Shown here piece after piece: positions 29,715 through 31,059 of a stretch of 32,894 bases of DNA. This DNA comes from a bacterium (GTDB lineage: Bacteria; Chloroflexota; Chloroflexia; Chloroflexales; Kallotenuaceae): contig JADDQF010000116.1 of the NCBI GenBank assembly GCA_016781505.1, positions 1 through 32,894 of the forward strand, in the 5' to 3' direction. Position 1 is the first letter of the stretch; each line of letters begins with the position of its first letter. Position numbers and translations under genes: made by a program. The notes under the pieces are model-generated. The model was not told the origin of the DNA. It ran no database searches and was given only the letters and a program-made list of their open reading frames with translations.

Positions 29715-29747
29715 CTGGAGCTGCGATCACACTGATCGCAGCTCCAG
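29715..29747. terminator. Bidirectional hairpin between convergent typA and the sensor kinase
   Basis: CTGGAGCTGCGATCA and its perfect reverse complement are separated by CAC: a 15-bp stem. T-tracts on both sides are poor (CTGCTT, TTGTTAAG), yet placement between convergent genes supports termination in both directions. Confidence 0.6.
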
Positions 29748-29760
29748 CTGCTTAACCGAC

Positions 29761-31059
29761 TTAGTCAACCGATGCCAGCAACGGCACACACATCGTAAAG
29801 GTTGTGCCCTGCCCTTCCGTAGTTGTCACGGTGATCGTGCCGCCGTGGCGGGTCACAATTTCTTTGACGACATACAGCCCGATCCCGAATCCATTAATCG
29901 TCAGGCCTGTTGCATTGGGGGCGCGGTAAAAGCGCTGGAACAGATTGGGCAAAGCTTCCTCAGGGATGCCGATACCCTGATCCTGGATCGACAAACACGC
30001 AAGCTCATGTTCGGGGGCAAGACGGATCGTAATCAGCCCACCGGCTGGGCTATATTTAATCGCATTTCCCAACAAATTCCGCAGCACCTGCGCTAAGCGT
30101 TCTTTGTCACCAAGCACCATAATCGGATTATCCGCATCCTGAACGGTCACGGTATGTCGCACCAATGTGGGCTCGACCTCGGCGACCACGGCGTGCACCA
30201 ACGTCGAAAGATCGAGCGGGAGCTGCTCGACGGCAAACTGTCCGCTATCCAGGCGCGAAATATCGAGCAAATCCGTGAGCATACCGTTGAGGCGCTCGGC
30301 CTGCGTTACAATGGCTTGCAGCGCACGTTGGTCTCGTTCCGGCAGATTGATCTCGCACGTTGCCCGTCTTTGGAGCAAATGCGCATAGCCTAACAAGCCT
30401 GCGAGCGGATTTTTTAGCTCGTGCGAGGCAATCGAGAGCAAGGCTTCGCGCTCACGAATCGCGTCTTGCGCTGCCCGATACAGTCGGGCTTGTTCCGCCT
30501 CGGCTTGCCGGCGGGCATCCAGCTCATGATCCCGCTCGATTTGTGTCGCGATAATACGTCCAAGCACGATCAGGAGGTGCGCTTGTTGGTCTGACAGCTC
30601 TTGCGGCTCCGGATCGACGGCACAGAGCGTTCCAAAAAACTGCCCGTCGTTAAGCATAATCGGCACGCCAATAAAACTGCCGACCGTGGGTGAGGCGGCC
30701 GTCGCCGAATGCATCCGAAAAGTAGGGTCCGTGCGTGTATCGTTGATCAGCAGAGGTGCAGGTTCGACCGAACCAGCGATCAGACTTCAAAATGTGTCCT
30801 CAAGTGGGAGCTCGATATTTGCAGGAATGTTGGAACCACCAGCGCGGTTATGCGCTGCAATCAAATGGTTACGGTTCTCCCCGGCAGTAATATGCGTGAG
30901 AAAACTGGTCCGTAAGCCGAGCTGGTCGGTGATAAACGACAAGATCGCCTCCACCAGCTCGGTGGTGGAGGCGTAGCTGCGGGCTGCAAGTGCAGAAAGC
31001 GAGCCAAGCTGGCGTCCTGGCTCACTCACGTTAATCTGCCTGGTATTTTCCGGCTCCAT
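29761..31059 (-). CDS. GAF-domain sensor histidine kinase, candidate selenoprotein (in-frame TGA at 30787-30789)
   Basis: 432 aa if the TGA is read through. The ATG at 31059 starts MEPENTRQ. GAF domain about 30-175: LPLEDTF (84-90), TGA at 91, then SLIAG, PLLINDTRTDP, GSFIGVPI and FGTLCAVD. This GAF subfamily has Cys after PLEDT(F/Y), so the TGA takes the Cys place. HisKA with His213 in IASHELKNPL; HATPase with Asn332 in LLGNAIKYSP, DQGIGIP and GFGIGLYV. No membrane segment: a cytoplasmic sensor. Both parts are in one frame and the second part would begin in mid-GAF, so two genes make no sense. A hairpin with a GGUC loop follows the TGA (30758-30777). No response regulator is adjacent. Nonsense mutation or sequencing error is the alternative. 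Confidence 0.85.
30758..30777 (-). promoter_or_regulatory. Candidate bacterial SECIS hairpin for the GAF kinase
   Basis: Counting U of UGA as 1, bases 16-29 read GGUUC-GGUC-GAACC, a perfect stem with a GGUC loop at 21-24. A U-U mismatch (15/30) and two more pairs extend it. E. coli fdhF carries GGUC at 22-25 of its SECIS loop and a bulged U in the stem, so loop sequence and position nearly coincide. Confidence 0.75.

Follow-up and report, generated by a model that had tools for sequence, protein, structure and literature searches.

A sensor histidine kinase gene of a Kallotenuaceae bacterium (Chloroflexota) is interrupted by a single in-frame TGA, which raises the question whether the gene is broken or the codon is read as selenocysteine (Sec). 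The gene lies on the minus strand of the window, which here means the whole analysed stretch of 32,894 nucleotides (contig JADDQF010000116.1 of assembly GCA_016781505.1). From its ATG to its TAA (31059 to 29761), the translated frame meets no interruption other than the TGA at 30787-30789, and the product would be a soluble protein of 432 amino acids with Sec at residue 91, in the context PLEDTF-U-SLIAGSVEP. GAF, HisKA and HATPase_c all exceed their Pfam cut-offs in this protein, in agreement with a preliminary description of the DNA, which had seen a lone TGA splitting an otherwise intact GAF-HisKA-HATPase protein. The features of the locus are the following.

29761 to 31059, minus strand: GAF-HisKA-HATPase sensor histidine kinase gene, stop TAA included, with a UGA predicted to be read through (translation, Pfam, full-length homologues).
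30535 to 30972, minus strand: GAF domain, about residues 30-175, the putative Sec-carrying sensing module, or Sec-GAF (Pfam, AlphaFold2, Foldseek with VIA-align).
30787 to 30789, minus strand: in-frame TGA, predicted codon of Sec91 (translation and homologue alignment).
30761 to 30774, minus strand: SECIS-like hairpin with a 5-bp stem, GGUUC/GAACC, and a GGUC loop (sequence, relatives, covariation).
30622 to 30624, minus strand: codon of Cys146 of the GTLC motif, on a beta strand, candidate partner of Sec91 (invariant in the aligned Sec-GAF proteins).
30241 to 30450, minus strand: HisKA dimerisation and phospho-acceptor domain, with SHELKNPL (Pfam).
29779 to 30111, minus strand: HATPase_c catalytic domain (Pfam).
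29717 to 29747, no strand assigned: strong inverted repeat (GAGCTGCGATCA...TGATCGCAGCTC) in the gap separating the kinase gene from the convergent bipA/typA gene (sequence; weak, chance-level Rfam match).

The neighbours of the kinase gene in the window are bipA/typA and an aldehyde dehydrogenase gene, and no receiver gene adjoins it there. The inverted repeat is probably a bidirectional terminator shared by bipA/typA and the kinase gene. The locus could also be taken as two open reading frames, the second re-initiating at 30714; since protein conservation runs across the TGA, this was rejected as the principal interpretation.

The first line of evidence for decoding is the RNA just downstream of the codon. 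Counted from the U of the UGA as nucleotide 1, a stem is formed by nucleotides 16-20 (GGUUC) with 25-29 (GAACC), closing a loop of nucleotides 21-24 (GGUC), exactly where the preliminary description had placed a GGUC loop on a perfect 5-bp stem. The bacterial SECIS model allows a loop of 3-9 nucleotides with G in its first two positions, a stem of 4-16 bp, a spacing of 16-37 nucleotides from the UGA, and a minimum free energy of -7.5 kcal/mol or lower (PMC13188914). The window hairpin passes all four of these published criteria, with its 4-nucleotide GGUC loop, 5 bp, 17 nucleotides between UGA and loop, and -9.4 kcal/mol; in other family members the energies range from -8.0 to -22.3 kcal/mol. 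In a scan of both strands of the window, the arrangement TGA-N12-GGNNC-GGTC-GNNCC occurred once only, at the kinase TGA. An fdhF-like U-U mismatch below the stem had also been proposed; it is present in the window (nucleotides 15 and 30), but the unpaired U is not conserved among the relatives, and the mismatch was rejected as a bulge of the whole family. Searches of the locus with Rfam gave chance matches below cut-off only, and none of its families recognised the SECIS there.

The same codon was then found in relatives by protein sequence alone. A first protein-only search covered 60 relatives and revealed four further copies with TGA at the Sec column; G002 has two of them, G004 and G027 one apiece. 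In a second round, a profile built from these four and the window's copy was run against 400 genomes from the phylum and 158 from the class. With the window counted, these protein-sequence searches brought the sites with TGA at the Sec column to 17, spread over 15 genomes of the Chloroflexia class, and although no RNA feature was used in them, 17 of 17 sites carry TGA-N12-GGNNC-GGTC-GNNCC. Most of the Chloroflexia copies come from metagenome bins. A pattern scan (ACNTWYTGARS-N10-GGNNCGGTCGNNCC) over 84,980 species genomes, or 257 Gb, gave 18 matches, 15 of which encode a GAF with the Sec column; L096, L098 and L106 were set aside as chance matches. Among the matches are metagenome-assembled genomes labelled Herpetosiphonaceae, Sphaerobacteraceae and Thermomicrobiales, and an isolate, Pyxidicoccus caerfyrddinensis CA032A. 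Two genomes encode two Sec-GAF proteins each, G002 (L047, L048) and G499 (L115, L130), the G002 pair being one histidine kinase and one GGDEF-EAL protein.

The hairpin itself is conserved in a way that follows base pairing. Stems were compared in 18 distinct sequences, 16 from the protein-only searches and two from the pattern scan. Pairs 1, 2 and 5 are constant, whereas pair 3 occurs as C-G, U-A and U-G, and pair 4 as G-C and U-A; 98.9% of stem cells are paired, both sides have changed in 13 cases, and the single mismatch, an A-C, is in G443. The covariation score of 0.367 compares with 0.146 for shuffled alignments, none of 500 shuffles being as high, and with at most 0.125 when the stem is slid. 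Pair 4 couples amino acids across the loop, Ser-Glu (UCG..GAR) against Ala-Ala (GCG..GCR). When the genes were recoded synonymously with their own codon usage, a paired stem and GGTC loop appeared in 1.5-16% of cases per gene. Combined over 16 genes treated as independent, this gives a log10 P of about -21; since related genes are not independent, the test can be no stronger than this figure suggests.

These results bear directly on the alternative that the UGA is a plain nonsense mutation, the mark of a pseudogene, or a sequencing error, with a hairpin present by chance. A single stop in a draft assembly would fit such a reading, but the same codon, in the same column and with a covarying hairpin, recurs in no fewer than 18 distinct sequences; these were drawn from independent assemblies, isolate genomes among them. 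Frames downstream of the TGA are open in the relatives and their output domains conserved, and none of the relatives examined carries another stop or a frameshift at the Sec column, an outcome that the preliminary description had named as telling against its proposal. The pseudogene reading was therefore rejected; since TGA and hairpin are both conserved in different genera and in two lineages, the nonsense or error explanation is refuted, and we regard its probability as negligible.

A second line of evidence for Sec comes from the residue that replaces it. The TGA had been said to fall on a column that is Cys in this GAF subfamily, and the relatives do have Cys there: among 61 aligned homologues, chosen by a motif that itself includes Cys or Sec, the codon is TGA in 23 and TGC or TGT in 38. 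Distant homologues outside this set (G299, G151) are without Cys at the column. None of 39 Cys homologues keeps the full SECIS element. Exchange between Sec and Cys, for which the preliminary description had recommended looking in related genomes, occurs even at short distances. Within the genus g244, G443 has Sec with the hairpin, and G442 and G444 have Cys, with TSN or TTR replacing GTV. In the family of P. caerfyrddinensis the GAF is present in 36 of 96 genomes, and the 30 copies read divide into five in which the hairpin accompanies a TGA and 25 Cys copies that lack a complete hairpin. On the tree there are seven Sec/Cys changes, at least five of which are forced by well-supported branches, or at least four when the Sec and SECIS columns are omitted from the tree. 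A Gly-(Ser/Ala/Thr)-Val motif is found in all Sec forms and in none of the Cys forms, as would be expected if the RNA hairpin imposed it. One Cys copy, L139 (G584), has four of five stem pairs left together with the Ser codon typical of Sec forms, and looks like a recent reversion from Sec to Cys.

The exchange also informs a different view of the UGA, one that does not exclude the others, namely that it serves mainly as a selenium-gated translational switch to which the chemistry of Sec is secondary. The kinase would then be made only when selenium and SelB are abundant, and translation would otherwise end at residue 90. UGA is indeed a stop codon when Sec-tRNA is short, and SelB was present in all genomes checked; the Cys forms, however, keep the same architecture without any gate, and the position of Sec at a conserved Cys column, exchanging with Cys in the 61 aligned copies, points to chemistry. 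A primary role as a switch is unlikely.

Decoding further requires a Sec machinery, and all four genes that the preliminary description had suggested looking for (selA, selB, selC for tRNA-Sec, and selD) were found in the window's own genome (4.18 Mb, 96% complete). The tRNA-Sec scores 68 bits against a cut-off of 47, with anticodon tca by ARAGORN; SelA scores 549 bits, SelB 311 bits in a 630-amino-acid frame, and SelD (L054, on contig C118) 374 bits. SelD is of the Sec type, with its own in-frame TGA in SCAG-U, and therefore one or more selenoproteins besides the kinase are very probably made by this genome. The hairpin loop of this SelD gene is unlike the GGUC loop of the GAF family. Elsewhere, SelB was detected in 17 of 17 genomes searched, above cut-off in 16, and tRNA-Sec was above cut-off in 13 of 15 genomes, as well as in G002, G004 and G027. 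tRNA-Sec was not found in G332 and G498, nor SelA in G002 and G027, all of them fragmented or incomplete. Co-occurrence alone discriminates weakly, because SelA is widespread in the order (above cut-off in 45 of 60 genomes), and the hairpin with the Cys/Sec column is the stronger evidence.

Additional genes of this kind were observed in some bins. G481 has three tRNA-Sec-like genes above cut-off (on C134, C35 and C20) and several SelB-like genes (C183, C237, C35:60528), with a short SelB-like frame of 487 amino acids and a second tRNA-Sec-like gene on one contig; short SelB-like frames of 383-421 amino acids also occur in G002, G452 and G455. The extra genes of G481 possibly represent a second, Sec-like decoding system, or contamination. 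The unusual tRNA-Sec-like genes of G481 lend some substance to the idea that a mischarged tRNA-Sec or another tRNA inserts Cys, or some further residue, at the UGA, as does the Cys of the relatives at this column. Against it, selA, selB, selC and a Sec-type selD of canonical kind reside in the window's genome, and the very same gene encodes Cys146 with an ordinary Cys codon, TGT, so that this reading appears very improbable.

At the level of sequence, the TGA, the hairpin and its covariation, the Sec/Cys exchange and the Sec machinery all support the decoding of the kinase TGA as Sec that had been proposed, and we consider it strongly supported and close to certain; insertion directed by SelB in vivo is very likely. 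In the proposed mechanism, the GGUC-loop hairpin 17 nucleotides downstream would recruit SelB with Sec-tRNA-Sec, the UGA would be read, and a full-length soluble GAF-HisKA-HATPase kinase would result, with Sec at the head of a short GAF helix. The window kinase would be one member of a Sec-GAF family in bacteria of the Chloroflexia class and relatives of Myxococcus; members of this family would couple a common Sec-bearing input domain to kinases or c-di-GMP enzymes. This account as a whole, a Sec codon read through under direction of the hairpin in a family with Sec in its sensing domain, is highly probable.

The family is not confined to histidine kinases, a point absent from the preliminary description. 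The Sec-GAF is joined to HisKA-HATPase in the window protein, L092, L093, L100, L102-L105 and others, and is combined with a second GAF and HisKA in L108, PAS-GGDEF in L107, GGDEF-EAL in L094, GAF-PAS-GGDEF-EAL in L097, PAS repeats with GGDEF in L095, and HisKA_3-HATPase-receiver-LuxR in L127. It behaves like a portable input module, shared by histidine kinases, GGDEF/EAL enzymes and hybrid kinases.

How the selenol might act was approached through structure. In the confident AlphaFold2 model of the GAF domain (pLDDT 94.6, pTM 0.90), Sec heads a short helix and a strand carries Cys146. Besides Sec91, Cys146 of GTLC is invariant in the aligned Sec proteins, and H117 is nearly so. Since most of what Foldseek gave for the full-length model were histidine-kinase cores, the GAF-only model was used for fold comparison; by Foldseek and VIA-align, fRMsr enzymes and bilin-binding GAFs have the same fold. 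Free methionine-R-sulfoxide reductase (fRMsr) is a GAF-fold enzyme with Cys chemistry, and a GAF pocket can therefore host thiol redox chemistry. Its structures (PDB 3MMH and 4MMN, Z 16.4 for both) are likened to the Sec-GAF by fold, and fRMsr is a stand-alone enzyme, whereas the Sec-GAF has kinase or GGDEF outputs joined to it. Among solved structures, the best relative by sequence (E 4.7e-12) as well as by Foldseek is the GAF of Dcsbis/PA2771 (PDB 4ZMU). Both Cys positions align with it (FC...GTLC type), but it has Cys for Sec and a GGDEF output domain, and the ligand of its pocket is unknown (PMC4937426).

Two readings of the residue were weighed. The selenol may be a reactive sensing residue, reacting probably with an oxidant or electrophile, in which case Sec91 would pass reversibly to a selenenyl-sulfide, with Cys146 as the best partner, or to a selenenic acid, and its modification would alter kinase output. 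That the selenol is the sensing group, probably through reversible redox chemistry with Cys146 or a small thiol, is given an even chance; the peroxide sensing suggested in the preliminary description stays at the level of inference. The other reading, in which Sec coordinates a metal, haem or Fe-S cluster in the pocket, or anchors a cofactor covalently, without a redox switch, is rather doubtful. GAF domains do bind haem, bilins and Fe-S clusters, and the fold search is rich in bilin-binding GAFs. The redox-sensing chloroplast sensor kinase and Hik2, like the window protein, are soluble GAF-kinases; they have a functional GAF Cys, which in the chloroplast sensor kinase (C19) binds a 3Fe-4S cluster (PMC6949291); unlike it, they have no Sec. 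On the other side, no second conserved thiol/His set was recognised in the Sec-GAF beyond Cys146 and H117.

The Sec-GAF shares with bacterial selenoproteins of the E. coli fdhF type the UGA at a Cys column, the apical-loop G's, the 16-37 nucleotide spacing, SelA/B/C/D, and Cys orthologues without SECIS. A 2026 catalogue lists 119 prokaryotic selenoprotein families and subfamilies, mostly oxidoreductases, Trx-fold proteins, transferases, and transport or metal-handling proteins, and nothing in its Table 1 is a GAF, histidine kinase, GGDEF or other signal-transduction protein (PMC13188914). Nor is the Sec-GAF among the nine new families of deep-Sep; NCBIfam 20.0 has no selenoprotein model for it, the sole match being that of the GAF domain to NifA, below cut-off. 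No GAF or kinase selenoprotein was found in open-licence papers, and a report elsewhere is possible. These proteins in Chloroflexota and Myxococcota are quite probably undescribed signal-transduction selenoproteins: histidine kinases, hybrid kinases and c-di-GMP enzymes fed by a portable Sec-GAF input domain that would sense through its Sec.

Annotation pipelines likely truncate members of the family or call them pseudogenes, and the SECIS signature GGNNC-GGUC-GNNCC can be used for scanning. Since natural Sec and Cys orthologues exist in one genus and in the family of a cultured myxobacterium, why a sensor should use Sec and not Cys becomes directly testable. If the proposal is true, Sec would stand in the input domain of two-component and c-di-GMP proteins, whereas most catalogued prokaryotic Sec proteins are redox enzymes or serve in transport or metal handling, and selenium would have a new use, in sensing rather than catalysis.
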